From IMG/VR virus record IMGVR_UViG_3300030328_000666, positions 1-30,173 of that record: a stretch of 30,173 nucleotides of DNA, one strand, 5' to 3'. A model generated the notes under the pieces. That model was given only the letters and a program-made list of their open reading frames with translations. It had not been told where the DNA came from and did not search any database. This stretch comes from a virus. Position numbers and translations under genes: made by a program. Of the stretch, positions 3-27,914 are shown one piece after another (positions within the stretch are counted from its first letter, which is position 1; each line of letters opens with the position of its first letter).

Positions 3-80
3 TTACAACAAGCAATAGAAGAAGGAGTGTTGAATATAATACAAATTGGACTCAACAGGGGGTACTGGAAACATGAATAG
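3..80 (+). other. 3' end of an upstream gene, frame unresolved
   Basis: The window opens inside an upstream gene. Two frames are open to the left edge. One ends at TGA 74-76, giving an ATGA overlap with the next start. The other ends at TAG 78-80 and reads IIQIGLN, which loosely recalls a curlin repeat. Too little is present to choose between them. Either way the upstream gene overlaps or abuts the curlin-like gene at 73, so they are probably co-transcribed. Confidence 0.3.
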
Positions 81-804
81 ACTATCAACATTTTTTGTAA
101 TTGCATTGAGTATGTTGGTAACAAATCAACTAAAAGCACAAGACAATGAGATCTTTGTATCACAGGTCGGTGCGACAGCTAACATAGACTTAGAACAAAT
201 GGGAAGCTCCAACATGATTGGTGGATTAAACTCTAGTGCAGGTTCGATGACAGACTTAGATCTTGACGGTGCTACTATGACATTGGATGTCAATCAAATC
301 GGAGACAGTAACAAGTTTCTTGGTGACATATTAGCAGATAGTTTTACAGGGGTTTTTGAGTTTGACGGTGACTCTAACGATATGACTATACAAGTAGATC
401 CTACGAATACTTATGGTGCAGACAGTTCAAATTTGGATGTGGACATAACAGGGAGTCAGAACGACCTCACTATTGATCTAGCTACAGCAGCTATAGCCAG
501 TAATACTGATTTAGATTGGATTGTTATGGGAGACAGCAACACTATTGATGCTGATATTGATATAGACCAATCAACAAACTATATGGATATAGATGGTGAC
601 AGCAATACAGTAAATTATAACGGTGATGGAGCAACGGCTTCAGCAGGAGGATATTTTTATCTTGAACACGATGGTAACTCGCGTAGCTTCGATGTTGACC
701 AGCAGTCTCAATTGGATGCAGATTGGGTTAAGATCACTTCTTCTGGGAATAACGGTAGCTTGTGCGTACAGCAAAATGACTCTGGGACAAGTCTCTCATG
801 TTGA
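73..804 (+). CDS. Secreted curlin-like repeat protein
   Basis: A 243-residue protein with an N-terminal signal peptide (MNR, then a hydrophobic stretch, likely cleavage after KA before QDN). The mature part is a low-complexity, Asp/Asn/Ser/Gly-rich array of degenerate repeats such as LDVNQIGDSNKF, FEFDGDSNDMTI and IVMGDSNTID. The pattern of alternating hydrophobics followed by G-x-S-N resembles curlin (CsgA/CsgB) beta-strand-turn repeats and suggests a secreted beta-solenoid or amyloid subunit. Two Cys lie near the C terminus. ATG 73 is chosen because it starts the signal peptide and overlaps the upstream stop; a TTG at 46 is also in frame but would put extra residues before the signal. The gene is followed by a FecR-domain gene and a holin, and lies near attP, the usual place for lysogenic-conversion cargo. 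The curlin assignment is by pattern only. Confidence 0.6.
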   Translation: MNRLSTFFVIALSMLVTNQLKAQDNEIFVSQVGATANIDLEQMGSSNMIGGLNSSAGSMTDLDLDGATMTLDVNQIGDSNKFLGDILADSFTGVFEFDGDSNDMTIQVDPTNTYGADSSNLDVDITGSQNDLTIDLATAAIASNTDLDWIVMGDSNTIDADIDIDQSTNYMDIDGDSNTVNYNGDGATASAGGYFYLEHDGNSRSFDVDQQSQLDADWVKITSSGNNGSLCVQQNDSGTSLSC

Positions 805-1825
805 AAATATAGGAAGTATTACAGAACTAAACGGAAACACCAGAGTAGTACGAGACAAAGTATATGAGAGTGCTATAGATTTCTCTCTTAACTCTATGGA
901 TAAACTAGAGACTGCAAAAGGCAGAATGGGTGTTACGTTTAGGGATGACACTACAATACGTTTAACAGAACACAGTAATGTTGTTATTGACGAGTTTGTG
1001 TTTGATCCAAATCCCAGCAAATCTACAATGGCTCTTAGTTTTATTAAAGGAACTGGTAGGTTTATCAGTAGTAAAAAACCTCGGATACCTAAAGATAACA
1101 TTACTATAAGAACCAATGCAGCAACCATTGGAATAAGAGGTACAGACTTTACAATCACAGTAAAAGAAACTGGTGAAAGTCTTGTAATACTATTGCCTGA
1201 TGAAACAGGTAAAGCCAGTGGTGAAATTGTTGTCTACACAGCTTTAGGTGATGTACTACTCAATGAACCTTACCAAAGTACAACAGTTTATAATTTTGAA
1301 ACAGCTCCTACACCAGCCGTAATATTGGATTTAACTTTAGACATGATTGACAACATGTTAATAGTAAATCCTCCTGAGACTATCCAAGAAGAAACAGATG
1401 AATCTACTGCTGTTGCAGACAATATTCTTGATGTAAATTTCTTAGAGTTTAGTGAGTTAGAAGAAGATAAATTGGCCGAAGATGAACTTGAGTTCACTGA
1501 GTTGGATATTGATTATTTAGCAGGTAATTTCTTAGAGGATCTCTTGGATACCATTCAAGAAGTAGATCAACTATCGAAGGCTGATAGTGCATTGTCGGCT
1601 GACGGTGTTAAAGGTACAGCCATTGGGTACGACAGTGACACACAGATAAATACATTTGTAAACGACAGTCACGTTAAGTTCATTAGGCAAATAGAAAACA
1701 ATTTACAAATGCAAGTAACAAAAGATGGATCATACAACATCCGTATAGATCAGGGTGGAAAAGTAAATCAATTAACAACTAATGGTGGTTCTTCTTCTTC
1801 TATAACAATCAAACAAGGTAGCTAA
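716..1825 (+). CDS. Secreted FecR-domain protein
   Basis: A 369-residue protein if started at ATG 716. That start gives a signal peptide (MQIGLR, hydrophobic LLLGITVACA, cleavage near LGQ). The same frame is open further upstream to 623, and an internal ATG lies at 776. Residues about 35-170 match the FecR domain pattern, including TIRLTEHSNVVIDEFVF, a KGTGRFIS segment and TIRTNAATIGIRGTDF. The middle third is very acidic. The last 60 residues (NIRIDQGGKVNQ, SSSITIKQGS) look like curlin-type strands again. FecR domains usually sense or bind at the cell surface; the role here is unknown. The start overlaps the curlin-like gene by 89 nt in another frame, so those bases would encode both proteins. 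No convincing Shine-Dalgarno precedes 716, so translational coupling is likely. Confidence 0.65.
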   Translation: MQIGLRSLLLGITVACAYSKMTLGQVSHVENIGSITELNGNTRVVRDKVYESAIDFSLNSMDKLETAKGRMGVTFRDDTTIRLTEHSNVVIDEFVFDPNPSKSTMALSFIKGTGRFISSKKPRIPKDNITIRTNAATIGIRGTDFTITVKETGESLVILLPDETGKASGEIVVYTALGDVLLNEPYQSTTVYNFETAPTPAVILDLTLDMIDNMLIVNPPETIQEETDESTAVADNILDVNFLEFSELEEDKLAEDELEFTELDIDYLAGNFLEDLLDTIQEVDQLSKADSALSADGVKGTAIGYDSDTQINTFVNDSHVKFIRQIENNLQMQVTKDGSYNIRIDQGGKVNQLTTNGGSSSSITIKQGS

Positions 1826-1827
1826 CA

Positions 1828-2313
1828 ATGAAACTAAAATTTGCAAAGATAAAAAACCTAATAGGAGCTGTCGCACCAACAATCGGTACAGCATTAGGTG
1901 GGAGCATGGGTGGTACAGCAGCTAAAATGGTAGCTGAAGTTTTAGGCTGTGAACCAGAGCCAAAGAAACTTGAAGCAGCCGTTCAAAATGCAACACCAGA
2001 ACAACTGGCAGAACTCAAGAAAATAGATAAAGACTTTGAAGTAAAGATGAAAGAATTAGATGTCGATTTGTATGCTTTAGAGACTGCTGATATTCAAGAT
2101 GCTAGAGATTCATTTAGAGAAGATTGGACTCCAAAATTATTCGGAATGGTTTCACTATTGGCCTTTGTTGGTTATATTTTTACAGTAACTATTATGCCCC
2201 CAGATCAGAACTCAGACACTATAGTTAGTCTTGTTTTAGGTTACCTTGGAGGCCTAGTGTCAGGAATATCTAGCTTCTATTTTGGGGCTTCCAATAAAGA
2301 AGAAAAACAATAA
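1828..2313 (+). CDS. Holin, GTA-type three-TM family
   Basis: A 161-residue membrane protein. It has a Gly/Ala-rich N-terminal hydrophobic segment (about 12-40), a charged linker predicted helical (about 48-105, KKLEAAVQNATPEQLAELKK), and two C-terminal transmembrane segments (about 110-125 and 132-155, ending GLVSGISSFYFGAS). This layout and C-terminal signature match the family of three-TM holins named for gene-transfer-agent release, common in Alphaproteobacteria. A holin would permeabilise the inner membrane at lysis. No endolysin is visible in the window; it may lie upstream. ATG 1828 follows the preceding stop directly, with AAGG upstream. A terminator follows the gene. Confidence 0.7.
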   Translation: MKLKFAKIKNLIGAVAPTIGTALGGSMGGTAAKMVAEVLGCEPEPKKLEAAVQNATPEQLAELKKIDKDFEVKMKELDVDLYALETADIQDARDSFREDWTPKLFGMVSLLAFVGYIFTVTIMPPDQNSDTIVSLVLGYLGGLVSGISSFYFGASNKEEKQ

Positions 2314-2368
2314 AATCAATAACTTAAATATAAAAACATAATCTGTTCACCTTAGTTTTTACACTCAA

Positions 2369-2440
2369 AACACCGTACTCTACAGACTAAATAAAACGTA
2401 TAACCGTCAAGTTTAGACTTTTTGTATCGGTGTTTTTTTT
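2369..2440 (+). terminator. Late-operon terminator
   Basis: AACACCG (2369-2375) pairs perfectly with CGGTGTT (2428-2434), followed by a run of eight Ts. The loop between is long and holds an inner imperfect hairpin. The position after the holin and before the integration module fits the end of the late transcript. Confidence 0.6.
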
Positions 2441-2494: not shown

Positions 2495-2649
2495 AATCTG
2501 TTCACTTAGGCATCAAGAAAGCGTCCTTGCTTTTACCTAAAAAAGAGTACCTCAGATTCCTAATCTTGGGGTCAGAGGTTCGAATCCTCTTCGGGGCACT
2601 CTTAATTTAGGTGTAAAAAAGGGAACAGATTAGTTTCATCGCTTTCTTG
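2495..2649 (+). other. attP: attP: tRNA-Arg(CCU) 3' part flanked by nested inverted repeats
   Basis: Bases 2554-2599 read as the 3' part of a tRNA in standard numbering. Anticodon loop TTCCTAA (anticodon CCT), stem TCTTG, five-base variable loop GGGTC, T stem AGAGG / CCTCT with loop TTCGAAT, acceptor strand TCGGGGC, then A and C. The 5' half of the tRNA is absent and the first two anticodon-stem pairs do not form, so this is not a tRNA gene. It is the classic core of an attachment site for an integrase that targets a host tRNA. The core is flanked on both sides by three pairs of inverted repeats, which are candidate arm-type integrase sites, and the integrase gene follows at once. Confidence 0.85.
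2514..2649. repeat. Nested inverted repeats around attP core
   Basis: Outer pair: CAAGAAAGCG (2514-2523) and CGCTTTCTTG (2640-2649), perfect. Middle pair: TAATCTGTTC (about 2495-2504, just left of this span) and GAACAGATTA (2623-2632). Inner pair: TTTTACCTAA plus AAAAGAGT (2531-2548) against ACTCTTAATTTAGGTGTAAA (2598-2617), imperfect. The pairs are nested symmetrically around the tRNA-derived core. A further TAATCTGTTC copy lies at 2339-2348 and an inverted one at 15533-15542. Confidence 0.75.
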
Positions 2650-2697
2650 GTTTTTGATAAGAAAGGGAGAGACTATGAGTTACACGAACACAGATCC

Positions 2698-2720
2698 ATT
2701 TAGGGTCACCCTTAAGGAAA
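2698..2720 (+). promoter_or_regulatory. Promoter/operator-like motif copy 2
   Basis: ATTTAGGGTCACCCTTAAGG followed by AAA. It shares the dyad AGGGTCACCCT exactly with the copy at 5793 and the directional flanks (ATTTA upstream, TTAAGG downstream) with the copy at 15153. It lies 24 nt before the integrase start chosen here (ATG 2744). If the integrase started at ATG 2675 the motif would lie inside the gene, which is one reason to prefer 2744. Confidence 0.5.
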
Positions 2721-2743
2721 ACATAACCAAAGGGGAGTCCCAA

Positions 2744-3616
2744 ATGAGTGAAATTACACTTGCAGATTTTGCAAACAACAATGAAGAACTAATATGGAAT
2801 CAAGCATGTCATCAACACAAAGTTGAATCCATTAGAAGACTAAACCGTTTCTTTAAGTTCCAAGACTACGGTAAACGTCCAATCAGATCATTTAATTTGA
2901 TGGATGTTGATATCTTTACTTCACATCTAAAACAAAAAGGTCTAAGCGAATCCACATGCAATAGATATCGCGCAGCAATCTCAAAGATATTCACAACTGC
3001 TTATAAGTACGAAAAAATAGATAGGCAGATCAAAATACCACTTGAGAGTGAGAAGCATAAGTCCAGACCTAATTTCTTCAGTCCAGAACAAATAGAACAA
3101 TGTAATGAGTTCTTAAGTCAATGTAAGCACCCATACGTTTTGCATTTCTTCCATCTTGGTCTAGAGACTGGTATGAGAAGGGGCGAAATATTATCTATTG
3201 GTGAAGAGCCAGATCCTAAAGGTAGGAAACCTTATGGTGTTATCTCTAGAGATAGAAAGAAGGTAATGCTTTACAACACCAAGAGTAAACACCCAAGAGA
3301 AGTACCATTGAATAAGTTTGCTGAGGCTGCACTTGCAGCATTGGACGATAGACCAAGCAAACACTATTCGAAGAAAACTTTTTATAACACATGGAAGAAA
3401 CTACGAGATCACGTTGCTTATGGTGATGTTAATTTCGTCTTCCATACCACTCGGCACACCTGTGCCACGTTATTAGCTAACGAGCACCGTGTTCCTACGG
3501 CAATCGTTAGTGAAATCCTAGGACATCAATCTGCTGACACAACACGCAAATATGTCCATGTAACTTTAAAAACTAAGTCAGATGTAATGAACCAACTAGG
3601 GGGAATATCCAGATGA
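2744..3616 (+). CDS. int: Tyrosine recombinase / phage integrase
   Basis: A 290-residue site-specific recombinase that would integrate the phage at a host tRNA-Arg gene. The N-terminal part (about 1-95) looks like the SAM-like core-binding domain. The catalytic domain shows the expected residues: Arg145 in TGMRRGEI, His234 and Arg237 in HTTRH, His261 in LGHQ, and the nucleophile Tyr270 in TRKYVHV. The frame is open to 2654, and ATG 2675 also has a good ribosome site (GGGAG). ATG 2744 has GGGGAG seven bases upstream and keeps the promoter-like motif at 2698 outside the gene. The stop overlaps the start of the next small gene. The adjacent tRNA-derived attP supports the role. Confidence 0.93.
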   Translation: MSEITLADFANNNEELIWNQACHQHKVESIRRLNRFFKFQDYGKRPIRSFNLMDVDIFTSHLKQKGLSESTCNRYRAAISKIFTTAYKYEKIDRQIKIPLESEKHKSRPNFFSPEQIEQCNEFLSQCKHPYVLHFFHLGLETGMRRGEILSIGEEPDPKGRKPYGVISRDRKKVMLYNTKSKHPREVPLNKFAEAALAALDDRPSKHYSKKTFYNTWKKLRDHVAYGDVNFVFHTTRHTCATLLANEHRVPTAIVSEILGHQSADTTRKYVHVTLKTKSDVMNQLGGISR

Positions 3617-4638: not shown

Positions 4639-5025
4639 ATGCAATATAAACACAACTTACATAAGAGGCTGTCGATGCTCAGAGAGAGACAGCAGATAAC
4701 ATGTGAGCAATTAGCCGAGAGACTCGGTGTTGGTAAATCGATAGTAGCTAAATGGTGTAAAGGGACTAGAGTTCCTTCACGGAAAAACTTAAAGCTATTG
4801 TGTGATTATTTTAAAGTTGAACCAGCTTGGTTAATCTATGGCATCGACAGTGATGCGCCAGTTTTGAAGGAAGGCTCTGGTGTATCGGAGACACTAGCTG
4901 TTGATGCTGAGTTGGCATTTAATGAGCTTACTATTGAAAATCAAAAAGCAGTATTAGCCTTCACTAAAGTTTTGCTTGCGAAACAAAAGCAAGACACAAA
5001 TGGAGGATGTGTCAATGGAGATTAA
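4639..5025 (+). CDS. Cro/CI-type HTH regulator without protease domain
   Basis: 128-residue DNA-binding regulator. Residues about 8-65 form an XRE-family helix-turn-helix (LSMLRERQQITCEQLAERLG, then VGKSIVAKWCKGTRVPS and LKLLCDYFKVEPAWLIYG). The C-terminal 60 residues are short and helical. There is no S24 autoprotease domain, so RecA-driven self-cleavage is not expected. It could be the lysogeny repressor or a Cro-like switch protein. It has a good GGAG ribosome site and is read in the same direction as all other genes rather than divergently, which is unusual for a lambda-style switch. The dyad motifs at 2698, 5793 and 15153 are candidate operators. Confidence 0.8.
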   Translation: MQYKHNLHKRLSMLRERQQITCEQLAERLGVGKSIVAKWCKGTRVPSRKNLKLLCDYFKVEPAWLIYGIDSDAPVLKEGSGVSETLAVDAELAFNELTIENQKAVLAFTKVLLAKQKQDTNGGCVNGD

Positions 5026-5835: not shown

Positions 5836-8325
5836 ATGGAAAGGATAGACATTACTAAAGAAATTGATCGTGAAAAAAGGATGTTAGAGAAAGGTAACGA
5901 AAGATTCCTTGATAGACAAGAGAGTAACAAGAGACTAACGACACAAGAGAACCCACATAACCTAGTAAAAGAATCCCTACCTAGAGTATCTAAAGAAATA
6001 CTATTACTTATAAATACAGAGAAAGAAAAAGGTAAAGGAAGAAAATGTAAATGGATAGATGACTTAGACACTATAGACCCAGATATCTTAAGTTACATTG
6101 GTTTAAATACATTTTTCGAATGTGTATCACAAGGTTTAACTAGAACATCTTGTCTAACTAGGATAGGTAAAAGAATAGAACTAGAGTCTTACTCTATAGA
6201 ATTAACTAAGTTTGATAGTAAATTAGCTAAGAGAATAGAAAGACAAGTGATGAAAGAACACTCTAGCGAAATCTATAGAATAGATGCTTTAAAAAACATA
6301 GCAGGTAAAGAAGGCTTCAAACCTGAAAGATGGTCTAAAGATAGAAAGACTAGAGCAGCAACACCCATATATGATGCTGTCTTAAATGCCAGTCATGTCT
6401 TCGAAGAATGGGATGAATCAGAGCCAAGGAAAACAAAAAAGAAAGTAGGACTTACAACAGAGGCATCAGCTTTATTGGCTAAGTTAGATTTTGAATCAAG
6501 TTGGAATGAACCAATGCTTGCTCCAATGATTGTCAAGCCTAGGCCTTGGAAAGATATAAACACAGGTTGTTATCGACATCCTAAGTTAGCAGCTCACGTT
6601 CCATTGGTCAGAGCAGCAACCCCAGAGCAGAGACAAGCAATAAGAAATCAAATAAGAACATCTAAAGAATTACCACTATACATTCAGGCACTAAACGCAT
6701 TACAGGAAACACCCTTAGAGATAAATAAGGATATGCTGCATGTTGTCAAATGGTGTTGGGAAAATGGTAAAGCACCAGCTAAGTTTCCATTGAAAGATTA
6801 TATTGAATATCCTGACAAACATGATAATTGGGATGAACTTACTGATGAACAAAAGAAAGGCATCAGATTAGACATAAAGAGTATTCGCATCAAGAACAGA
6901 GAAATAGATGGTGCTAGAGCTGTGATGCAACAAGATTTAGCCACAGCAGATGAATTGTCTAATTTCGAAGAATTCTATCTTGGTTGGAACATGGATTTTA
7001 GATCAAGAGTTTATCCTGTAAGTTTCTTTAATTACCACAGGGATGACCATGTAAAGAGTTTATTCCTGTTAAAAGAAAAATCTAAGATAACCAAAGACAA
7101 TGTTGCATGGTTAGCAATACACTTAGCTAATACTGGTGATTTTGATCGTATCAGTAAAGGCACATTAGAAGAGAGAATTGAGTGGGTAAATCAAAACCAT
7201 ATAATGATTTATTCTTGTGGTGTCGATTATGAAGGCTCTTATGAAATATGGAGCAAAGCAGATAAACCATTTCAATTCCTCAGTGCATGTATCTGTTATG
7301 CCAATTGGTGCGATAATCCTGATAACTGTTGGACTGGGTTACCCATAGCAATCGATGGTACTAACAGTGGAGTGCAGCATTATTCAGCATCATCTTTGTC
7401 TAGATCAGAAGGTAAACTTGTAAATCTAACTGCTGACGTAAAGAAGCCACAAGATGTCTATCAGAAAGTAGCTGACAATGTTGTAAAGAAACTAGAGCAA
7501 AACAAAGAAAAAGATGAACTAGCGAAACTCTGGTTAGACTTTGGGATCAACAGAAGTATATGCAAAAGAAATACAATGTGTTTTGGCTATAGTTCCAAAA
7601 GATATGGTTTTGCAGATCAAATCTATGAAGATCTAATGAAACCTATCGAAGATAAAGTTCTGAGAGGCCTTATAAAAGAACACCCTTTTGGTAATAAAAA
7701 CGAACAGAAACAAGCAGCCAGATATCTAGCCAACATAAACTACGATGTCATTAGGAATCTTCTTAAATCAGTTACACAGGGTATGGAATTTTTCCAACAG
7801 TGCTGTGATGTCTTATCAAAAGAAGGCAAACCAATGAGGTTTAGAACACCTACTGATTTTCCAGTAATACAAAGATACAACAAATGGAACAAGAAGAGGG
7901 TAAGAATTTTCCTACATGATCGAGTAGCAGGTATAAAGAAAAGATCTCTGGTTACCTTAAGAGAAAGAAACAAAAGCAAGATTGACAGTAAGAAAGCTAG
8001 AAGTGCTGTCAGTCCTAATGTAATACATAGTTTAGATGCCAGTCATTTATTGATGACAATATTACACTGTAGATCCTATGGGGTTCAATCATTCTTTGTT
8101 GTCCACGACAGTTTTGCAACAGTGATTGACCACACTTGGACTATGTTTCATTGTGTCAGATCTACATTTGTAGATATGTATAAAGATTGGTGTCTATATG
8201 AAGATATGAAAGATCAAGTGGCACAGCAATTGAATGACCCTATGAAAATTACAACAATCAAAATCCCTGAAAAGGGCACTTTGAATTTGGAGGAAGTTAG
8301 AAATTCTGACTACTGTTTTTCTTAA
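5836..8325 (+). CDS. Single-subunit (T7-like) DNA-directed RNA polymerase
   Basis: An 829-residue polymerase (T7 RNAP is 883) that would transcribe phage genes from its own promoters. Visible landmarks are MDFRSRVYPV (about 386-395), catalytic Asp507 in AIDGTNSGVQH, the motif-B region with Lys577 and Tyr585 in KRNTMCFGY (same eight-residue spacing as T7 Lys631 and Tyr639), and catalytic Asp758 in VVHDSF. ATG 5836 has AGGAG upstream. The first 100 residues are unusually rich in Lys, Arg and Glu. A motif that could be its own promoter lies just ahead. It heads the replication operon, as in T7-like phages. Confidence 0.95.
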   Translation: MERIDITKEIDREKRMLEKGNERFLDRQESNKRLTTQENPHNLVKESLPRVSKEILLLINTEKEKGKGRKCKWIDDLDTIDPDILSYIGLNTFFECVSQGLTRTSCLTRIGKRIELESYSIELTKFDSKLAKRIERQVMKEHSSEIYRIDALKNIAGKEGFKPERWSKDRKTRAATPIYDAVLNASHVFEEWDESEPRKTKKKVGLTTEASALLAKLDFESSWNEPMLAPMIVKPRPWKDINTGCYRHPKLAAHVPLVRAATPEQRQAIRNQIRTSKELPLYIQALNALQETPLEINKDMLHVVKWCWENGKAPAKFPLKDYIEYPDKHDNWDELTDEQKKGIRLDIKSIRIKNREIDGARAVMQQDLATADELSNFEEFYLGWNMDFRSRVYPVSFFNYHRDDHVKSLFLLKEKSKITKDNVAWLAIHLANTGDFDRISKGTLEERIEWVNQNHIMIYSCGVDYEGSYEIWSKADKPFQFLSACICYANWCDNPDNCWTGLPIAIDGTNSGVQHYSASSLSRSEGKLVNLTADVKKPQDVYQKVADNVVKKLEQNKEKDELAKLWLDFGINRSICKRNTMCFGYSSKRYGFADQIYEDLMKPIEDKVLRGLIKEHPFGNKNEQKQAARYLANINYDVIRNLLKSVTQGMEFFQQCCDVLSKEGKPMRFRTPTDFPVIQRYNKWNKKRVRIFLHDRVAGIKKRSLVTLRERNKSKIDSKKARSAVSPNVIHSLDASHLLMTILHCRSYGVQSFFVVHDSFATVIDHTWTMFHCVRSTFVDMYKDWCLYEDMKDQVAQQLNDPMKITTIKIPEKGTLNLEEVRNSDYCFS

Positions 8326-15175: not shown

Positions 15176-15735
15176 CTGATAGTGATAGTTCTTATACTTA
15201 AGATGACTAAAGGTTTATTACTTTAATATTATAATTATTAAGTAAAACACTATAAAAACACCTTAGCCTTTAGTTATCTATAGTTCCCCCTAGATCCTTT
15301 GTAGATAGTTATAACTTTGACTCTCTCTTTCGTTATGATTGTCTACTAAGGATCTTCCCTTACTATTGTTTGTCTATTAATTGTATGTCTTCTTAAGAGT
15401 CCAAGACTTTGAGATCATTCCCTTTTTTTTCTTTAATTTAATGCCCTCAAAGCCAAAAAATTTCTGTTCGTCATCAAATGTCAAATGTCTGACGAATCAA
15501 AAGTAAAAATCAAACAAAAGGGGAACAGATTAGCTATCTGATTCACCTAAGATTGGCTTAAACACTGGCTTACAGGACTTCTGCTAGAAAAAAAGGATTG
15601 TTTAGCTAGAAATTGACCCCATTGGGATGAATGAAAATGGACTTCAAAAACTAAGGTAAAGGGTCGCGCTTGTTGTTGTTGTTGGACGTTGTTAAGAAGA
15701 GTCCAAATTTTGAAAACACTTAATATGAGAACATT
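15176..15735 (+). other. Non-coding region: AT-rich stretch and inverted repeats (candidate origin or structured RNA)
   Basis: I see no credible gene here. It begins just after the promoter-like motif. ACTAAAGG (about 15205) and CCTTTAGT (about 15266) are perfect inverted repeats that enclose a very AT-rich stretch. AGATCCTTTGTAGA (15292-15305) pairs with TCTACTAAGGATCT (15342-15355) at 13 of 14 positions. TTCGTCA (15477-15483) pairs with TGACGAA (15500-15506). A T8 run lies near 15423. GGGAACAGATTAG (15531-15543) exactly repeats an attP flank. Promoter followed by AT-rich DNA is the layout of the T7 primary origin, so an origin is plausible; a structured RNA is the alternative. Confidence 0.45.
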
Positions 15736-16516: not shown

Positions 16517-18130
16517 ATGGGACAAATAATACCAATCAGAGGAATGTCTGAATCAGGAGTTATCACAGATGTTGATCCTGCTAGTCTACCTCTATCGGCT
16601 TTTACTAGAGCCAAGAATGTAAGATTTGATGAAGGTGCAGTCTTACGTTCCCCTGTCTTTAGAACAGTTAAAGCCAGCTTAGGTTTCAACCCAAGATACG
16701 TCTATGGTGTCAACCCCATCACAGGTTACTCTACTGTAGTCATAGCGACAGACACCTACGGCATACAAGAGTACGCTAACGGTTCACTCACAGACAGATC
16801 AGGATCTATAAGTGCGACATCGGCCAATGATTTAGTATGGACTGGCACTACCTTAGCCAACATAGTCTATCTCAACAGATCCGATAAAGTTCCTTCGTAT
16901 AAATTGATAGGGGGTACTAACTTTGCTGCCCTAACAAATTGGGACTCCAATTGGAGATGTGAGGCATTAAGATCTTATGGGGATTTCCTGATTGGTTTAA
17001 ACATGACGGAATCCTCTACTAACTACGGTACTAGAGTACGGTGGTCTAACATAGCGACTGCCAATGCTATCCCTGATTCATGGGATGCCTCTGATACCAC
17101 AAAGAGTGCTGGGTTTAATGATCTAGTACAAATGCAGTCTCCTATCATTGATGGAGCAACTCTAGGTACTAACTTTATTGTCTATTCCAAGAGTGACGTA
17201 TGGTTAATGGAATTTGTAGGTGGTACGTTTATATTTAACTTCCGTAAAGTATTTAGTGACATCGGTATAATCAATCAGAACTGTGCTATTGAAGTAGATA
17301 GCCGTCACTATGTATTTTCTGATAATGATATTTATGTCCACGATGGTAACACCAGAGAATCCATAGTAGACCAAAGAGTTAAGAACTACATTTTCCAAAG
17401 TTTAGACTCATCGAAGACCGATGTATGTTTTGTATCCAGACATCCAGAGTTAGAAGAAATCTATTTCTGTTATAACTCAGGGGATGATATGGCTGAGTTT
17501 ACGTCTTCCAATAGATGCAACAGAGCAGCCGTATACAACTATAAGAATGGCACTTGGTCATTCTTAGATTTACCTAATGTAGCATCAGCGAGTATAGCCA
17601 ACGTAAATTCAAGTAGTACCTATGCTAACTCTACAGCTTCTTATGAAACCATAGGTGGCTCATATTGGTCTCAACAGGCTAACTTTGATACCCATTGTAT
17701 TTTTGTAGGACAAGACAACAGCACTGATGGTATTACTTCAGATAAATTGTATGGATTAGACTTAAGTGATACTGGGTCACTTTCATTTGCTTTAGACAGT
17801 GAAGCTACTAAAGCTCCATTATTAGAAAGAAAAGGTATTGATTTAGATGAAATGGTAAAACTTTCGGGATACAAAGTTATTAGTAAAGTGTATCCACAGG
17901 TAACAACAAGCAATACAAGTAAGACTTTTTCATTTAACTTTGGTGCTGCCAATTTAATCAATGGTACTCCAAATTATGAAACGACTGTTACTTACGATAT
18001 CTCTACGGATCACAAGATAGACTCAAGAGCAGCAGGTAGATATTTATCTTATAAATTGTCTTTGCCTGATAACAAAGATTTCTCTTTTATTGGATTCGAT
18101 ATGGATGTATTAGTTACTGGTAGGAGATAG
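16517..18130 (+). CDS. Tail hub / DNA stabilisation protein, P22 gp10-like
   Basis: 537 residues. The opening (PLSAFTRAKNVRFDEGAVLR) and central segments (SYGDFLIGLNM, SDVWLMEFVGG, HYVFSDNDIYVHDG, RHPELEEIYFCYN) form repeated beta-blade-like units. This fits the propeller-type tail protein family that includes P22 gp10. Such proteins plug the portal and attach the tail needle or fibres. No signal peptide or TM segment. It starts two bases after the fibre gene stop. The family call rests on pattern and position rather than a decisive motif. Confidence 0.6.
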   Translation: MGQIIPIRGMSESGVITDVDPASLPLSAFTRAKNVRFDEGAVLRSPVFRTVKASLGFNPRYVYGVNPITGYSTVVIATDTYGIQEYANGSLTDRSGSISATSANDLVWTGTTLANIVYLNRSDKVPSYKLIGGTNFAALTNWDSNWRCEALRSYGDFLIGLNMTESSTNYGTRVRWSNIATANAIPDSWDASDTTKSAGFNDLVQMQSPIIDGATLGTNFIVYSKSDVWLMEFVGGTFIFNFRKVFSDIGIINQNCAIEVDSRHYVFSDNDIYVHDGNTRESIVDQRVKNYIFQSLDSSKTDVCFVSRHPELEEIYFCYNSGDDMAEFTSSNRCNRAAVYNYKNGTWSFLDLPNVASASIANVNSSSTYANSTASYETIGGSYWSQQANFDTHCIFVGQDNSTDGITSDKLYGLDLSDTGSLSFALDSEATKAPLLERKGIDLDEMVKLSGYKVISKVYPQVTTSNTSKTFSFNFGAANLINGTPNYETTVTYDISTDHKIDSRAAGRYLSYKLSLPDNKDFSFIGFDMDVLVTGRR

Positions 18131-18132
18131 AC

Positions 18133-18411
18133 ATGGCTATTAATGAGAAAACTGATGTAGTAACTGCTCGTTATAGTCGTAAAAACTACCCATCTATTGA
18201 CCGTAATGTAAAACAATATCTTATTGATGAATTTCAAAGGATAGAAAATACCTTGTTGTCAATGGCTGATGCCGACATACAAACTGTAGATAAAGCACCA
18301 AGCAACCCCAGAAGAGGCATGGTTAGATTTAATGTCTTGCCTTGGAATCCACTTGGCAACAACAGCCAAGGGTTAGTTGTCTACAATGGCACTGCTTGGG
18401 TAGCAGTATGA
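18133..18411 (+). CDS. Small virion-associated protein
   Basis: 92 residues with GGAGA before ATG 18133. The N-terminal half is helical (RNVKQYLIDEFQRIENTLLS). The C-terminal half ends GLVVYNGTAWVAV, a terminus common in phage fibre-related proteins (a G-x-x-x-Y-N-G-T-x-W beta strand). It may link fibre subunits to the tail. It overlaps the cupin gene by ATGA. Confidence 0.6.
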   Translation: MAINEKTDVVTARYSRKNYPSIDRNVKQYLIDEFQRIENTLLSMADADIQTVDKAPSNPRRGMVRFNVLPWNPLGNNSQGLVVYNGTAWVAV

Positions 18412-18902
18412 GTTCTTTATCAACAAGATTAAAAGCATCAGTCAGTCATCTACAGAATAAAATAGAAGAAGGTATCGATGAAGGTAAATTTGTAGATGCA
18501 ATACCAGATACCAGTCTACAGCATTATTTTTCACCAGTTATCGAAGAGTTTGGCTGTGGTCAATACGCTAGAGAATTAACTGTACCGAAAGGTATGACTT
18601 TTGTTGGGAAAATACATAAACATCCACACATCAGTATTTTATTAAAAGGCGAGCTAGTTGTTGTCTCTGAATCGGGACGCATACACATGAAAGCACCCCA
18701 TACTTGGGTTTCACCAATAGGTGCGAAAAGAGCTTTCTATGCTGTCGAAGATTCTGTTATGACAACAGTACATATAACTAAGCAAGAACCTAATTTAGAT
18801 CATCTAGATGCAATAGAAGATGAACTAATTACAGATTCTTATTCATCCATAGGGTTACCCGAACCCAATATAGAAAAGTATTTCCAATTAGGAAAAAAGT
18901 AA
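18408..18902 (+). CDS. Cupin-fold protein
   Basis: 164 residues from ATG 18408 (ATGA overlap); the frame is open to 18342 but the overlap start is more natural. Residues about 60-125 form a single cupin barrel: GKIHKHPHISILLKGELVVV holds the first His motif, and HTWVSPIGAKRAFYAVEDSV the second. Similar short cupin proteins occur beside tail genes in marine podoviruses. Whether it binds metal, sugar or is purely structural cannot be told from sequence. Confidence 0.7.
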   Translation: MSSLSTRLKASVSHLQNKIEEGIDEGKFVDAIPDTSLQHYFSPVIEEFGCGQYARELTVPKGMTFVGKIHKHPHISILLKGELVVVSESGRIHMKAPHTWVSPIGAKRAFYAVEDSVMTTVHITKQEPNLDHLDAIEDELITDSYSSIGLPEPNIEKYFQLGKK

Positions 18903-18915
18903 GAGGTATAACAAC

Positions 18916-19899
18916 ATGACATTCGTAGCAGCAGCTATCATAGGCTCGTCAGTAGTTGGTGGCATTGCTTCCAGTAGAGCAGCTAGTAAACAAGCTAGAG
19001 CACAGAGGGACGTTGCAGACACACAAGCAGAAGCCTTTAGATTTTCAAAGCCATACATAAAAGAAACTTATGAAGGCGGTCAAGCAGCATTGGCTGATGT
19101 ACTCAACAGAGGAGCTTATGGTGGTCAAACTTATGCAGCACCAGATCCATTTCAGCTATCAGGTAATATATATGCTGGAAATGTAGGACGGAATGTCGGA
19201 CAAGGTGCTCTTGATGCAGCATTGGCATCACAAGATTATGCCAGCAACTTTGGAGATCTTTATGGAAGAGCTATGGGTGACGACAGAATGGCTATAGCAC
19301 AACAGTATGCTATAGATAATGCTAATCCACTCGTTAATGCTGCAATGAGGGATGATTTCCGTAATCTAACTGAAAATACTTTAAGAAATACAGCAATGGG
19401 AGCTCAGGGTACAGGAAATACTAATGCCTCTACTAAAGCTGTTGCCGATGCAATAGCCAACAGAGGTTTCCAAGATAGACTAACGGATACTACAGCAAGA
19501 ATACAAGATAACTTAATTGATAGGTCTATAGCACAACAAGGCAGACAATTTGATGATGCCTTAGAAGCAACTCAGGGTATGGGTAGAAGCTATCTAGATT
19601 CTCTTAATGCCTCACAAAAGGCTGCTGAATTGATGACTGGTGCTGGTAGAAATCTTAGAGGTTTCGACCAAGGTTATCTCAATGACCTTAGAGCTGCCTA
19701 TGAACGTGACAGAGATTTTGCATTAGATAATCAAATCAAATACAGACAAGGCATCTTAGGTGATGCTGTGTATCAATCACCACAGAGTCCACAAGGTGTA
19801 TATGCAGATCCTACTGCTGCTGGCTTTGGTGGTGCTATACAGGGTGCAGGTATCGGCATGGATCTTGCTAAATTCTTTAAAGATATGAAGGAGGGGTAA
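18916..19899 (+). CDS. DNA ejection / internal virion protein (P22 gp7-like type)
   Basis: 327 residues. It starts with a Gly/Ala/Ser-rich hydrophobic segment (VAAAIIGSSVVGGIASSRAA) followed by a long Ala/Gln/Asp-rich helical body and ends in a Gly-rich hydrophobic stretch (GFGGAIQGAGIGMDLAKFFK). This layout is typical of podovirus proteins carried in the head and ejected with DNA to cross the envelope. Ribosome site AAGAGG. Two further ejection-type genes follow. Confidence 0.65.
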   Translation: MTFVAAAIIGSSVVGGIASSRAASKQARAQRDVADTQAEAFRFSKPYIKETYEGGQAALADVLNRGAYGGQTYAAPDPFQLSGNIYAGNVGRNVGQGALDAALASQDYASNFGDLYGRAMGDDRMAIAQQYAIDNANPLVNAAMRDDFRNLTENTLRNTAMGAQGTGNTNASTKAVADAIANRGFQDRLTDTTARIQDNLIDRSIAQQGRQFDDALEATQGMGRSYLDSLNASQKAAELMTGAGRNLRGFDQGYLNDLRAAYERDRDFALDNQIKYRQGILGDAVYQSPQSPQGVYADPTAAGFGGAIQGAGIGMDLAKFFKDMKEG

Positions 19900-19904
19900 A
19901 TAAA

Positions 19905-21224
19905 ATGGCAACAAACTTCAATTTAGGCAACCCTTATAGTTTTCCTTCGTTATCTAATGTTGCTAATCAGAATACTTTTAGACAACGTAATCCTAATGTA
20001 AAAACAGCAAGACAATTAGCCGAAGAAAGGCAAGCTGAAGAAGCAGCTAGACAAGCACTTATTTTAAATAGTGCTGGTGGTTTTGCCCCAATAAATACAA
20101 ATAATTTTAGGGGATCAACAGAACCCAGTGCATTTGCTAATGCTGTTCGTGGTATTGAATTTAAACCTAATGCTGTTGCTTTGGGCAACAAGATTGCAAG
20201 TCTTTACGATAGAAGAACACCAGAAGAAATTGCTGCTGAAAATGCAGCCGTTATGAATAACAACAATGTTACATCAGGTGGTGGTGGGGGATTAATAAGC
20301 AGTGCAAATGCAGCAGAATATGTACCAACACCATTTGACCCAAGTACAACCAATGATTTACTGCCTGATTATCTTCGTGTAGATAATTCAATGCCCCTAA
20401 GTGCTAAAGATATGATATTACAAGGAGCTGCTAGTGCTGCTTCTAATATTGAACAAACACCTAAGACAAGAAGAGGTTTTATGCAACGTCTAGGTGACAA
20501 AATTATGCAGGATGACCCGAATCAAATTGGTCTTAGTGAGACATTAAGAAGAGTGGGTGGAGCTATGGTCGGTGCATCAGGTCAGGGTGGTCTTGCAGCC
20601 TATCAAGCTGCTTCAGATGCCTATGGTGGCATCCAAGATGAAAACAGAAAATTAGCTCAGGCTGAACAAGCTAGATTAGATGCTATTAATGAAGCTGAAT
20701 TAGATAGACTAGCTACACAACAAGCAGCAGCAGCAGAGTTAATACAAGAAACTGCACCATTAATCCAAGACGCACAGGCTCAACAAACAGAGTTCAGTGA
20801 TCTTATAAACATAATAAGTGGAAATGACCCTGAGTTTGGCGATATCAATGCTGTTGGCATGACTAAAGGCAGTGAAACAGCACAATCAATAGGTGAAATG
20901 TTTGGTACTAAAGGTGCTATTGTGAGAAAACGACTGCAAAAATTAGTTATTGACTCTACATTGACTAAAACTGCTCGAACTAAAGGTGCTGTATCTGATA
21001 GAGAAATGGCACTATTCCAGTCTGATATTCCTTCTATGTATGCAGATGAATCAGTTTGGATCGATTGGCTTAATAGAGGCCTAAAACTTCACCAAGAAGC
21101 TGAAAGAAACCTCAGAAATAATGTGTTCCCTTATGCGAATGAAAATTCTATGCCTTCTGATGCACCCTTAGCTGGTTTCAGTAAAGAAGACGCTGATGTA
21201 CTTTCACAATATATTATGGACTAA
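19905..21224 (+). CDS. Probable internal virion / ejection protein
   Basis: 439 residues with a GGAGGGG ribosome site. It has an Asn-rich start, a helical Ala/Glu/Gln-rich middle (about 10-50 and 240-300) and a poly-Gly spot near 126-130 (SGGGGG). No enzyme motif is visible. Its place between two ejection-type genes suggests an internal virion protein. Confidence 0.5.
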   Translation: MATNFNLGNPYSFPSLSNVANQNTFRQRNPNVKTARQLAEERQAEEAARQALILNSAGGFAPINTNNFRGSTEPSAFANAVRGIEFKPNAVALGNKIASLYDRRTPEEIAAENAAVMNNNNVTSGGGGGLISSANAAEYVPTPFDPSTTNDLLPDYLRVDNSMPLSAKDMILQGAASAASNIEQTPKTRRGFMQRLGDKIMQDDPNQIGLSETLRRVGGAMVGASGQGGLAAYQAASDAYGGIQDENRKLAQAEQARLDAINEAELDRLATQQAAAAELIQETAPLIQDAQAQQTEFSDLINIISGNDPEFGDINAVGMTKGSETAQSIGEMFGTKGAIVRKRLQKLVIDSTLTKTARTKGAVSDREMALFQSDIPSMYADESVWIDWLNRGLKLHQEAERNLRNNVFPYANENSMPSDAPLAGFSKEDADVLSQYIMD

Positions 21225-21230
21225 CTCTTA

Positions 21231-23678
21231 ATGACACAATTTGCACTTCAAGATATACAAAAAGGAATCCTTAAAGCGCACAACAACGGAGATACAGAGG
21301 GAGCAAAAAGATTAGCAGCCATTTATAAGAGACAACAAGCCAACACAAGGACAACAGGAGGTCTTCCCCCTCCATTAGAAAACCAAGTAGTACAACAAAG
21401 AACAGCACCAAGAGACAGTGCCTTCGAATATGGTATTGATACAGCTCAAAGATCTCTTGGTAAAGGTGTTGAAGCTCTAGGAAGAACTGTAGGTCTTTCT
21501 GGTCTTGAAAGATATGGACAAGATGTTGTCCAACAGCAAGATAGAGACATTGCTAGAGGTGGTTTTGTACCAAAATATAACCAAAGTTTCAGCGATACCC
21601 TTTCACAAGGTGGTATTGGAGCTGGTCTGGGATGGATAGGCGAAGGTTTAGCTAAAAATGTCCCAAGTGCAGGAGCAGCTATCGCTGGTACTGGTCTTGC
21701 TGCCTTAACTGCACCTGTATCAGCCCCAGCAGCAGCCGTACTTACTGGTGGGACAATACTTGCGTCAGGTTTAATGGGTGCTGGTGAAGCTGCCTTTGAG
21801 CAAGAAGAAAAAACTGGTGATTATGATGCCTCTGTACTTGGTGTTGGTGTCGTAACAGCAATACTTGAAAGAATTGGTGCTAAAGGTGTTATTTCACCTA
21901 ATAAATTAGCCAAGATGTCTACTGATGAAATTACATCAGAGCTGCAAAAGAAAGGATTTGGTCAAGCAGCTAAGAATTTTGCTATTGCTTCTGGTAAAGA
22001 GGGTATTACAGAAGGTGGACAAGAGTTATCTAACATTGCAGCTACCGAAATGAAAGGCGGTGTATACACAGACAAAGAAAAAGCTGATCGTATTGCCGAT
22101 GCTATGATTCTTGGTACTTCATTTGGTGCTGGTGGTAAAGCTGTAGCTGATACTACTAGAGCTACTGGCAGAGGATTAAAGAAAGCTAAAGAGGCAGTCA
22201 AAACTAAAACTACTGAAGTTATTAAAGGTAAAGATGCTGTAGAAAAATCTAATCCAGAAGCTAAAGCTGCTTTTGCACAGCGATTAAACACTATTGCTAC
22301 AGAAGGTGATATAGATGGTAATACATTCGACCCTACAGATATTGATGTAAAAAATCCTTATGGAGCAAGACAATTAGTTGATACTGCACACGATGAAATT
22401 AGTGCTGGTATAGATAAATTAGCTAAAAGAAAAGAATTAAGAAAATACACTGAAGGGTTTGGTGAAAAACTACAACCAACCAGCGAACAAACTCTCAATG
22501 ACCGTGCTTTAGTTAAATCTGCTATTAAAGCAGCCAAGAGTAAAGTTAAATCTGTTGTAACTAAGCCTCAGATGCAAGCACTCGAAAAATTAGCTGGTAA
22601 AACGAAACAAGGCAAACAATTAATCAACTTAGTCAAAGAATCACAAGAATTAACTAAATTAAAAAACAGAGGATTACGAACTGGTATAACTAAATATACT
22701 GAAATCTTCAACCCACTTAGTGACTCTGGGTCTTATAACGATAGAGCTCTGTTAAACACTACTATTGGCGCATTTGGTGGTGGTGCTCTTGCTTCAGTTA
22801 CAGGTGGTTCTAGTATATTAGGTCAAGCTGGTATTGTCGGACTCGGTAGAGCATTAAGTCCAAAAGGCAGCAGATCTACTGTTAATAAATTTATACAAGA
22901 TAATATAAATAAATCTAAAGGTTTTGCTGAACCTACTGGTCTTGATCTCATTGCTGAATCCAATAGAAAACTAGAAGAAGATAAAGCAAAACAAAAACAA
23001 AAAGCAGAACAAAAAGCACAAAAACTTATAGAAGATAGAGAAACTAACATTAGTAGAGTTAGGCAAAATTCTCCTGCTACACCTAATTCACCTCAATTTA
23101 TTGTAGAAACAGCCGTTGGTCTACCTAGAAATACCATTGCTGAAATATTGCGAGTAATGAAAAAAGACCCAAGAACTACTAAAGGACAAATGAGAAGTAT
23201 CAATGAATATCAAAATTCTGTTGCTTTAGGACAAGCTGGAAGTAACAGAGGTCTAGTTACAGATTTGAATGGTTTGATTAGAGATCTCAAAAACACAAGA
23301 AACACTAATAGCGAATGGGCAGCACAAGCTAAACCAGATCCAAAAATAGAAGGTTTAGCAGTAGAGTATGACAACAGAACACAGCGACAAAAGAATTATG
23401 AAAATGCTGTTAAAGCTAATCAACTTGAAGCTGATCGATTAATCAATGCTGTTGATGAAGACACAAAACTATCGGCAGAAGAAAAAGCCGTACTCACTGA
23501 CAACTTAGAAAAAGTAAAAGAAAGCCTAGGCAGTGATCCAGTGGGTCAACTACAAATAATGGAACAGAGAATGACTGACACTGGTGTTTCACCTGAAGCT
23601 ATTGAAACTTACTTTCAACCTTATGTTATGAGGGTAATAGATCAACAGAAAGCGAGAGAATCTATAGAAATGCAATAG
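21231..23678 (+). CDS. Large internal virion / DNA ejection protein
   Basis: 815 residues. Residues about 120-220 are Gly/Ala-rich and hydrophobic (GIGAGLGWIGEGLA, APAAAVLTGGTILASGLMGAG), a possible membrane-inserting region. A second such stretch lies near 505-545. The rest is Lys/Glu-rich helix with coiled-coil potential (about 580-605). No lytic transglycosylase or peptidase motif is visible. Size, composition and place after two similar proteins fit the largest of a three-protein ejection set. Confidence 0.55.
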   Translation: MTQFALQDIQKGILKAHNNGDTEGAKRLAAIYKRQQANTRTTGGLPPPLENQVVQQRTAPRDSAFEYGIDTAQRSLGKGVEALGRTVGLSGLERYGQDVVQQQDRDIARGGFVPKYNQSFSDTLSQGGIGAGLGWIGEGLAKNVPSAGAAIAGTGLAALTAPVSAPAAAVLTGGTILASGLMGAGEAAFEQEEKTGDYDASVLGVGVVTAILERIGAKGVISPNKLAKMSTDEITSELQKKGFGQAAKNFAIASGKEGITEGGQELSNIAATEMKGGVYTDKEKADRIADAMILGTSFGAGGKAVADTTRATGRGLKKAKEAVKTKTTEVIKGKDAVEKSNPEAKAAFAQRLNTIATEGDIDGNTFDPTDIDVKNPYGARQLVDTAHDEISAGIDKLAKRKELRKYTEGFGEKLQPTSEQTLNDRALVKSAIKAAKSKVKSVVTKPQMQALEKLAGKTKQGKQLINLVKESQELTKLKNRGLRTGITKYTEIFNPLSDSGSYNDRALLNTTIGAFGGGALASVTGGSSILGQAGIVGLGRALSPKGSRSTVNKFIQDNINKSKGFAEPTGLDLIAESNRKLEEDKAKQKQKAEQKAQKLIEDRETNISRVRQNSPATPNSPQFIVETAVGLPRNTIAEILRVMKKDPRTTKGQMRSINEYQNSVALGQAGSNRGLVTDLNGLIRDLKNTRNTNSEWAAQAKPDPKIEGLAVEYDNRTQRQKNYENAVKANQLEADRLINAVDEDTKLSAEEKAVLTDNLEKVKESLGSDPVGQLQIMEQRMTDTGVSPEAIETYFQPYVMRVIDQQKARESIEMQ

Positions 23679-23686
23679 GAGTTTTT

Positions 23687-24178
23687 ATGCGAAAAGCTAG
23701 AGCAAAAGCACCTCCAAAATCAAATGCATGTCCTCAAAGAGCACCAAAAAATAATTACTTTAGCACTCTTATGAGTACACCCGAAGGCAGAGCCAAAAGA
23801 AAAGAATGGAGCAACAAGCCTAGGAAAAATGCAGGTAGACCAAAAGGTGTTCCTGATGGGCATCGTAAAGAAACAATCGAACCATTAAGAAAAAAAGCTA
23901 GAGAAGAAGCAAAAAAGGTAACTCAAATTATGAGCAAGAAATACAACATTGAAGACGACTATGCAAAAGAAGCATTGTCAACAGCCGTTGAAATTATGCG
24001 ACTCGATGGAGAAGTTAGATCACGACTTGCAGCAGCAAGACTTGTCTTAGACTTTAGTAAAAGTAAGCCAGCAACAAAAAGTGATGTCTCTATCAGTAAA
24101 GCTGAAGATTTCTTAACTTCGTTATTAAAAGAGGAAGAGCATGGACAAGAAACTAAAGGAGATACGCAAGAGACTTAG
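23687..24178 (+). CDS. Terminase small subunit (probable)
   Basis: 163 residues with an AGGAG ribosome site. The N-terminal 80 residues are very basic (RKEWSNKPRKNAGRPKGVP), suited to DNA binding, followed by helices (ALSTAVEIMRLDGEVRSRLA) and an acidic tail. The call rests mainly on position: its end overlaps the large terminase gene by 38 nt. It would recognise the packaging site. Confidence 0.65.
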   Translation: MRKARAKAPPKSNACPQRAPKNNYFSTLMSTPEGRAKRKEWSNKPRKNAGRPKGVPDGHRKETIEPLRKKAREEAKKVTQIMSKKYNIEDDYAKEALSTAVEIMRLDGEVRSRLAAARLVLDFSKSKPATKSDVSISKAEDFLTSLLKEEEHGQETKGDTQET

Positions 24179-25712
24179 GGATGACTTCGAATACTATAGT
24201 AAGTCTGCCCTAAAAATCAGAACCAAAGAAGGAAAGATCTCACCCTTAGTTTTAAATCCAGCTCAAAAAATAATTAATGACATAGTTAAAAAACAATTAG
24301 AAACCACAGGCAAAGTCAGAGTCATTATATTAAAAGCTAGACAACAAGGACTATCGACATACACAGGCGGTTATTTTTATCATTGTGTGAGTCAAAATCC
24401 TGCTAAGAAAGCAATGGTGATAACACATCATGCAGACTCAACAAGGGCACTTTTTGATTTAACTAAAAGATTTCATGAGCATTGTCCTGAAATATTAAAA
24501 CCACATACTAAGTATTCATCTAGAAGAGAAATTAACTTTGATATCTTAGATTCTGGCTATGTCGTAGCAACAGCAGGTGGTGAAAGTATTGGTAGAGGTG
24601 AAACTCTAACTCATGTTCACTGCTCAGAATTGGCTTTCTGGCAAAAATCAACAGCAGCAGACAATTTTAACGGCCTATTACAAGCTGTCCCAAATGCTAA
24701 AAACACTGCAATCTTTATAGAATCAACAGCAAATGGTATTGCTAATCTATTTTATAAATTATGGACTGGGGCAGTACAAGGTGAGAATGAGTTTGTACCT
24801 TGTTTTATACCTTGGTTTACTGACCCAACATATCGTTTGCCTGTTAAAAAAGATTTTGAAAGAACACCAGAGGAAAATGATCTAGCCAAAGAGTTTGATT
24901 TAGACAATGAACAATTAAACTTTAGAAGAACAAAAATAGCTCAGAATGGCATTGATCTTTTTAACCAAGAATACCCAAGTACACCAGAGATAGCTTTTCT
25001 TGTCTCAGGTAGACCAGTTTTTAATCCAGAACAATTACAAGAAAGATTAAAAGAAACAACAGACGTTAAGGGTAGATTTGCATTAGAGAATAAAGAATTT
25101 GTAGAAAACCCAAGAGGTGAACTCACTACATATAGACATCATCAAGAAGACGAAAGGTACATATTGGGATGTGATGTAGCAATGGGAGTAAGAGGAGGAG
25201 ATTACTCTGTAATACAAGTCTTAGACTCTAAGAAAAATCAAGTGGCAATATGGAGAGGCCATGTTCATCCAGATTACTTTTCAGAAGTTATTTATGCCTT
25301 AGCACATTACTACAACGAGGCTTTTGTTATTGTCGAAAATAACTCACATGGGATATTGACTTGCACTCGTCTTGCTAAAGACATGAATTACCCAAACTTT
25401 TACACAGAGGTTCAAGTGGACAAGCTCACCGACAGGGAGACTGTGAAACTTGGCTTCACTACTACAACAAAAACTAAACCACTAATTATTGATGAACTAA
25501 GAGCAGCAGTCCGTGACAGTGAACTAATACTTGAAGATAAAACAACAATAAGAGAAATGATGTCTTATATCGTCACTGAATCAGGAAGTATGCAAGCGGA
25601 AGCAGGTGCGTATGATGACACAATAATCGCTCTTGCTCTGGCGAACCATGCCCATGAGGGTAGTTGGAAACCTGTTAAATTTAATGACGACTTTTACATA
25701 GAGATGATCTAA
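24141..25712 (+). CDS. Terminase large subunit
   Basis: 523-residue packaging motor. The ATPase domain has a Walker A-like KARQQGLST (65-73) and Walker B with Glu163 (HVHCSELAF). The RNase H-type nuclease domain has Asp345 (GCDVAMG), Glu399 (VIVENNSHG) and Asp492/Asp493 (GAYDDTI). This matches headful-type terminases of podoviruses. The start lies 38 nt inside the small-subunit gene; the portal gene follows two bases after the stop. Confidence 0.93.
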   Translation: MDKKLKEIRKRLRDDFEYYSKSALKIRTKEGKISPLVLNPAQKIINDIVKKQLETTGKVRVIILKARQQGLSTYTGGYFYHCVSQNPAKKAMVITHHADSTRALFDLTKRFHEHCPEILKPHTKYSSRREINFDILDSGYVVATAGGESIGRGETLTHVHCSELAFWQKSTAADNFNGLLQAVPNAKNTAIFIESTANGIANLFYKLWTGAVQGENEFVPCFIPWFTDPTYRLPVKKDFERTPEENDLAKEFDLDNEQLNFRRTKIAQNGIDLFNQEYPSTPEIAFLVSGRPVFNPEQLQERLKETTDVKGRFALENKEFVENPRGELTTYRHHQEDERYILGCDVAMGVRGGDYSVIQVLDSKKNQVAIWRGHVHPDYFSEVIYALAHYYNEAFVIVENNSHGILTCTRLAKDMNYPNFYTEVQVDKLTDRETVKLGFTTTTKTKPLIIDELRAAVRDSELILEDKTTIREMMSYIVTESGSMQAEAGAYDDTIIALALANHAHEGSWKPVKFNDDFYIEMI

Positions 25713-25714
25713 AA

Positions 25715-27757: not shown

Positions 27758-27781
27758 CAACAACAAACAAGAGGAAAAGTT

Positions 27782-27847: not shown

Positions 27848-27914
27848 CAACCAATCACCAATACGACTTTTTATAGAGTCATTTACAAATTATTAACAAC
27901 AAAAAGGAAAGCAA

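Follow-up and report, generated by a model that had tools for sequence, protein, structure and literature searches.

An integrase-bearing, T7-like phage carries, at the end of what looks like its late lysis operon, a curli (type VIII) secretion module with which it would build a fiber on the surface of its host, a reading to which we assign a probability of roughly 0.6. The stretch of DNA analyzed here (the window) is the whole of an IMG/VR record, a linear sequence of 30,173 bp that is probably a fragment. Phage-encoded curli is itself known; what is new is the carrier, which encodes its own RNA polymerase, an integrase and a Cro/CI-type helix-turn-helix (HTH) protein and has a tRNA-Arg(CCT) attP. 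No report of a curli module in an integrase-bearing T7-like phage was found in the open-access literature, of which coverage was incomplete. The module keeps its order and composition in sister contigs, is under purifying selection, is independent of its flanks, and resides after a lysozyme gene and before a hairpin and attP (Table 1).

Table 1. Features of the window that bear on the curli module and its carrier
Feature	Position	Strand	Evidence
csgG 3′ end, last 25 residues and stop (curli outer-membrane secretion pore)	3-80	+	Translation; C-terminus matches
Curlin (CsgA/B-type) fiber subunit, 243 aa	73-804	+	Homology, signal segment, GxxN turns, all-beta model
Exported FecR-domain protein, 369 aa; putative fiber nucleator, anchor or adaptor	716-1825	+	PF04773, E = 1.4e-10; PHROG 37870, E = 3e-65
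Holin candidate, a small membrane protein whose gene closes the rightward operon	1828-2313	+	PHROG 1544, E = 9e-28
Terminator-like hairpin and U run, between operon and attP	2363-2440	+	RNA fold -18.5 kcal/mol, z = -3.7
attP core, tRNA-Arg(CCT) 3′ half	2554-2599	+	Shares 46 nt without mismatch with the tRNA-Arg(CCT) gene of Woeseiaceae MAG L085
Tyrosine integrase	2675-3616	+	PF00589, E = 5e-18
Cro/CI-type HTH protein, putative repressor	4639-5025	+	PF01381, E = 7e-12
T7-like single-subunit phage RNA polymerase	5836-8325	+	PF00940, E = 4e-86

Composition and setting of the curli module

The two adjacent genes singled out by the original prediction, which saw in them a free-standing curlin-like and FecR-domain pair, are real and were correctly delimited. 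They are not free-standing, however. Bases 3-80, a frame missing from that first account, translate to LQQAIEEGVLNIIQIGLNRGYWKHE followed by a stop codon, which resembles the CsgG C-termini of two sister contigs, L003 and L004 (LQQAIEEGVLNII.IGLNRGYWK), and of about 60 other phage contigs. Because these bases encode the end of CsgG, the pair evidently forms the 3′ half of a module of four genes, CsgF-CsgG-curlin-FecR, that has been severed by the contig end, with the remainder of csgG and the whole of csgF lying beyond it. The end of csgG and the ATG of the curlin gene share 8 nt, an overlap that is typical for the curli module.

In sister contig L004, Pfam identifies CsgG (PF03783, E = 1.9e-44), CsgF (PF10614, E = 3e-18) and a phage lysozyme (E = 4e-12), and a CsgF gene is likewise present in L003, L059 and L073. 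L003 and L004 both display the order lysozyme, transmembrane (TM)/coiled-coil protein, CsgF, CsgG, curlin, FecR, holin candidate, attP and integrase, which L059 follows up to its partial integrase, and in these three contigs the entire block is situated between the lysozyme gene and attP. Among the features that define type VIII secretion, the CsgG pore gene is present, CsgF neighbors csgG (in the sister contigs, outside the window), and a CsgA/B-type substrate is recognizable by homology to phage CsgB and bacterial curlins, with the Pfam Curlin_rpt match being marginal. CsgE, CsgC and CsgD were not recognized among the neighboring genes examined, and the unseen CsgE is a point against fiber formation; all three are reported to be absent from phage modules (PMC9599517). 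Directly 5′ to csgF is a membrane/coiled-coil protein of 116-117 aa (L004:1416-1769, L020:5855-6205, L006:5855-6205), which is kept across unrelated phage backbones and is replaced elsewhere by an 85-aa version. This conserved protein appears to be the fifth component of the module.

The search for the pair in other phages that had been proposed was fruitful. When IMG/VR was queried with the FecR protein, 327 relatives emerged, and every locus with enough upstream sequence among the 80 that were retrieved shows the CsgF-CsgG-curlin-FecR order, with 59 CsgF ORFs and 65 CsgG ORFs in the set. In 71 of the 80, similarity to the window DNA stops at about the FecR stop codon, and for this reason the curli block can be said to move as a unit, independent of the flanking genes. 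Similarity extends beyond this point, into the holin candidate or attP, in only a handful of loci, T7-like ones included, and most of the 71 neighborhoods contain no match to the integrase of the window. Also, the same module is found in both podovirus- and myovirus-type phages, the structural genes of which are unrelated. The curlin is closest to that of L002 (87%), a contig that has no downstream similarity, and the FecR protein is equally near to those of L003 and L004 (82% and 81%) and of L002, which suggests recombination between phages inside the module.

Immediately downstream of the FecR gene is the small membrane protein that the original prediction took for a holin. It is a holin candidate: the PHROG family that it matches is one of unknown function, and neither Pfam nor NCBIfam supplies a name. 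Many other phages that carry curli genes have a homologue 5′ to csgF. From lysozyme through FecR the genes overlap head to tail, a promoter scan before the curlin and FecR genes found promoter-like sites no more often than expected by chance, and the terminator-like hairpin after the last gene is present in L003, L004 and L059 too. Based on these overlaps, the lack of a promoter excess and the conserved hairpin, the block looks like part of a late lysis operon that ends before attP, with gene order as the sole guide to its timing. A search for repeated motifs resembling promoters of the phage RNA polymerase turned up nothing except repeats around attP that look like operators or arm sites. The idea that the pair occupies the usual cargo site, as a moron, was given up in view of the overlaps with the late block, the absence of a promoter excess and the hairpin before attP.

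The main alternative to a fiber is that the pore has been repurposed for envelope disruption, such that the CsgG/CsgF outer-membrane pore aids lysis and the curlin and FecR protein act as substrates, plugs or timers. The position of the block in this phage type, directly 3′ to the lysozyme and TM/coiled-coil genes and 5′ to the holin candidate, is in keeping with such a role, as is the fact that many other types of phage have a homologue of the holin candidate in the vicinity of the block. In addition, the curli-bearing phage Melnitz infects its host without visible clumping, and a lysis pore has been proposed there (PMC9004378). A bare pore, however, needs neither the curlin nor the FecR protein, and both are constant companions of the pore genes and are under purifying selection (pN/pS of 0.11-0.37 and 0.15-0.21, respectively). 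Some carriers also possess, near the block, spanin-like gene pairs of their own (L030:9136-9931, by eye). We therefore consider a pore without a fiber to be unlikely, though worth keeping in view.

Carrier phage, attachment site and probable host

The carrier is T7-like (Autographiviridae-type) in that the record encodes a single-subunit RNA polymerase together with other T7-type replication genes, namely a gp2.5-like SSB, primase/helicase, PolA and exonuclease. It is not closely akin to HTVC019P-type pelagiphages or other isolates, since its RNA polymerase is only about 28% identical to those of the listed isolate phages and its terminase is 37.5% identical to the nearest one, from Roseobacter phage CRP-7. 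Only about six contigs with the RNA polymerase of the carrier were found in IMG/VR; those of sister contigs L003 and L004 are about 55% identical to that of the window, and the integrase and gene order are shared. The integrase itself is 53% identical to that of L003 and 97% identical to that of L091. Because the structural genes (16517-30173) are not T7-like, as the affinity of the terminase indicates, the phage is evidently a hybrid in which a T7-type replication module is joined to a different head/tail module.

Directly 3′ to the scaffold gene are two group I introns (Rfam RF00028), at 29322-29561 (E = 5e-23) and 29718-29983 (E = 6e-9, under the gathering cut-off), which apparently split a major capsid gene starting at 29313. 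A long homing-endonuclease ORF is seemingly absent from both intron stretches.

With an integrase, a repressor candidate and an attP that matches a host tRNA, the phage has the attributes of a temperate phage. The attP that the original prediction placed next to the pair is real and corresponds to the 3′ half of tRNA-Arg(CCT). Across 84,980 species genomes, an exact 39-mer of this site has a single occurrence, which lies in a Woeseiaceae MAG; there the identity reaches 46 nt and the GC content of the locus (37.4%) is close to that of the phage (37.5%). When up to two mismatches are allowed, the site is present in 5 of 61 genomes of the family Woeseiaceae and, among 398 genomes of the phylum, in the same MAG only. 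Based on these matches, the host is probably not SAR11 but a Woeseiaceae-like gammaproteobacterium with a small genome. CsgG was found neither in this MAG nor in four relatives with near-matching sites, and thus the phage would bring the curli system into such a host.

Two repeated sequences occur in and around this region. The first, GGNGAACAGATTA, is present four times (0.23 expected); three copies flank attP (2339-2351, 2494-2506 and 2620-2632) and are likely to be integrase arm sites, and the fourth (15520-15532) falls where genes are sparse, at 15 kb. The second, the palindromic AGGGTNACCCT, is present five times (0.45 expected), at 2449, 2702, 5797, 15157 and 18851, with sites around attP and the integrase gene and 5′ to the RNA polymerase gene. 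These palindromes are likely repressor operators.

The attP and integrase adjoin the pair, and the Cro/CI-type HTH protein suggests lysogeny, so it could be that the prophage expresses the pair and thereby alters the surface of the lysogen, as the original prediction also envisaged. Despite these three elements, expression in lysogens is not supported, because the block resides in an apparent late lysis operon, overlapping with its genes and lacking any promoter excess of its own, and a terminator hairpin separates it from attP. Furthermore, the module alone is what 71 of 80 relatives have in common with the window, and a search of 107 genomes from the family of the candidate host revealed no prophage that carries this integrase. 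Conversion of the lysogen surface is quite improbable on these grounds.

The curlin and its FecR-domain partner

The curlin is very acidic and has a clear N-terminal signal segment, FFVIALSMLVT, with a mean hydropathy of 2.57, as well as two C-terminal cysteines, C231 and C243, that are invariant across the family. It is 33% identical (E = 2e-24) to a protein of phage HTVC008M annotated as “CsgB” (AGE60350), and the family profile retrieves the curlins of bacterial CsgF-CsgG operons (L139, E = 2e-10; L138, 2e-6; L130, 2e-6). GxxN turns are regularly spaced along the protein, numbering 7 as against 1.7 in shuffled sequences (2 of 5000 shuffles reach 7), and a position-specific matrix built from bacterial curlin repeats favors the curlin at p of about 0.03. 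Pfam Curlin_rpt matches 7 of 34 curlin relatives, with a best E of 0.008, as the repeats are degenerate. The curlin-like repeats of the original prediction are therefore upheld by homology and by the GxxN turns but find weak backing in Pfam. An AlphaFold2 model (pLDDT 75.8) is all-beta except for the signal segment, with 18 strands, and the curlin is likely a beta-solenoid. The structural comparison, by which this fold was to be checked, is less telling: a Foldseek search with the model returned no significant neighbor, solved curlins included, and the weak neighbors are mostly beta-helices. Searches of PDB sequences with the curlin and FecR profiles returned nothing relevant.

In the second gene, the predicted FecR domain is confirmed by Pfam and opens the mature protein, straight after a short hydrophobic segment (mean hydropathy 2.21); signal peptides had been predicted on both proteins, and both indeed have such N-termini. 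The curlin and FecR ORFs overlap by 89 nt (716-804) in different frames, and it is within this stretch, at the 3′ end of the curlin gene, that the FecR signal segment is encoded, so that the signal peptide was apparently made by overprinting. Since this segment varies in hydrophobicity and is weak in some relatives, export of the FecR protein is likely but not certain in all of them. A frameshift fusion of the two proteins across the overlap was also considered and rejected, as no slip site was seen by eye and the genes are separate in HTVC008M.

Within the last 45 residues of the FecR protein is a motif with curlin-like spacing, I.I.Q.GK.N..NGG..I.I[KR]QG, which was found in all 81 relatives whose sequence extends to the C-terminus. 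The curlin-repeat matrix scores this tail at p of about 0.014 relative to shuffles, but one internal segment of the protein scores equally. The curlin-like tail of the original prediction thus persists as a conserved motif that is no more than suggestive of a curlin repeat. Weak NCBIfam matches of the FecR protein are to the surface proteins Lsa33 and LipL45, and its predicted structure (pLDDT 39.6) is too poor for use.

In the published interpretation, FecR acts with an upstream “histidine kinase”, said always to precede csgF, and with an adenylate cyclase to control phage curli (PMC9599517), and a CHASE2-adenylate cyclase does adjoin FecR in some relatives (L075, L045). However, the FecR domain is the only feature of a FecR-type anti-sigma protein that is present here. 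Pfam finds no anti-sigma N-terminal family in the protein, an N-terminal cytoplasmic anti-sigma region and a nearby ECF sigma factor are lacking, and Sigma70 region 2 occurs nowhere in the record, which is a fragment. Moreover, in the loci inspected, the place of the “histidine kinase” directly 5′ to csgF is taken by the membrane/coiled-coil protein of 85-117 aa, without a kinase domain in the scanned examples, and the FecR gene of the window has no cyclase gene after it. Given the missing anti-sigma N-terminus and sigma partner and the resemblance to surface proteins, a structural role as nucleator, anchor or adaptor is more likely than the regulatory one (PMC9599517), which we regard as highly improbable. 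That the curlin and FecR protein are instead structural parts of the virion, as their beta-rich repeats and late position might imply, is the least credible reading and was set aside, given their Sec-type signal segments, their co-occurrence with CsgF and CsgG, and the spread of the module over phages of podovirus and myovirus type, whose structural genes are unrelated.

Relation to known curli systems and proposed role

Curli modules have been published in pelagiphages (PMC9599517, PMC7029224) and methylophages (PMC9004378), and transcripts of homologous pelagiphage modules are reported from ocean metatranscriptomes (PMC9599517). The original prediction was right in kind, although the site and the lysogeny that it assumed are unsupported and the secretion pore was missed. 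HTVC023P-type podophages carry a complete module that includes FecR, with the same CsgF-CsgG-curlin-FecR order, module-like transfer and sometimes an adenylate cyclase (PMC9599517). In contrast to these, the carrier described here is T7-like with its own RNA polymerase and integrase, its window contains neither a second curlin nor a cyclase, and its host is probably the Woeseiaceae-like gammaproteobacterium. The SAR11 myophage HTVC008M (KC465899, 7562-13807) and its relatives possess a partial curli cluster, for which “sibling capture” has been put forward (PMC7029224). HTVC008M shares with the window's module CsgF, CsgG, the “CsgB” and FecR (36%), arranged alike and with csgG overlapping the curlin gene, but these are followed by an adenylate cyclase and a second protein that matches Curlin_rpt strongly, and its FecR signal peptide is its own rather than overprinted. 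The Methylophilales phage Melnitz (MZ577097) is arranged similarly, as CsgF-CsgG-curlin-FecR (38%)-curlin-cyclase, but is a myophage, and it is the one for which the lysis pore without clumping was described (PMC9004378).

Bacterial curli operons (CsgF-CsgG-curlin) encode CsgG proteins to which the phage CsgG is 34-45% identical, and their curlins are matched by the curlin profile. They differ in that none of 10 bacterial curli loci has a FecR gene within about 5 kb of csgG, and in that bacterial curlins display many clean QxGxxN repeats.

Returning to the fiber, CsgG would form an outer-membrane pore late in infection, with CsgF as its cap, and the curlin would be secreted and fold into a beta-solenoid fiber on the host surface. 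The exported FecR protein, the last 40 residues of which are curlin-repeat-like, could nucleate or anchor this fiber, thereby performing a CsgB-like job without any gene regulation. The likely benefit would come before lysis, by keeping neighboring cells or released virions close or by blocking competing phages. Given CsgG and CsgF, a surface amyloid on infected cells becomes more plausible, and the phage probably uses the curli block late in infection to coat or perforate the dying host. More tentatively, and with considerable doubt, it is possible that the FecR protein with its curlin-like tail serves phages specifically to nucleate the amyloid or anchor it to the surface, standing in for CsgB with a FecR domain as its scaffold, a protein which phages added to a captured bacterial curli operon and which an integrating phage uses to coat its hosts late in infection.

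Phage-encoded curli is widespread in the ocean, with a role that is unproven, and the present case adds to its carriers a type of phage that has an integrase and probably infects a different host lineage. The same block enters unrelated phage backbones as a unit, repeatedly near lysis genes. Overall, the published labels “FecR regulator” and “histidine kinase” are called into question, and a nucleator-type role for the FecR protein is directly testable.
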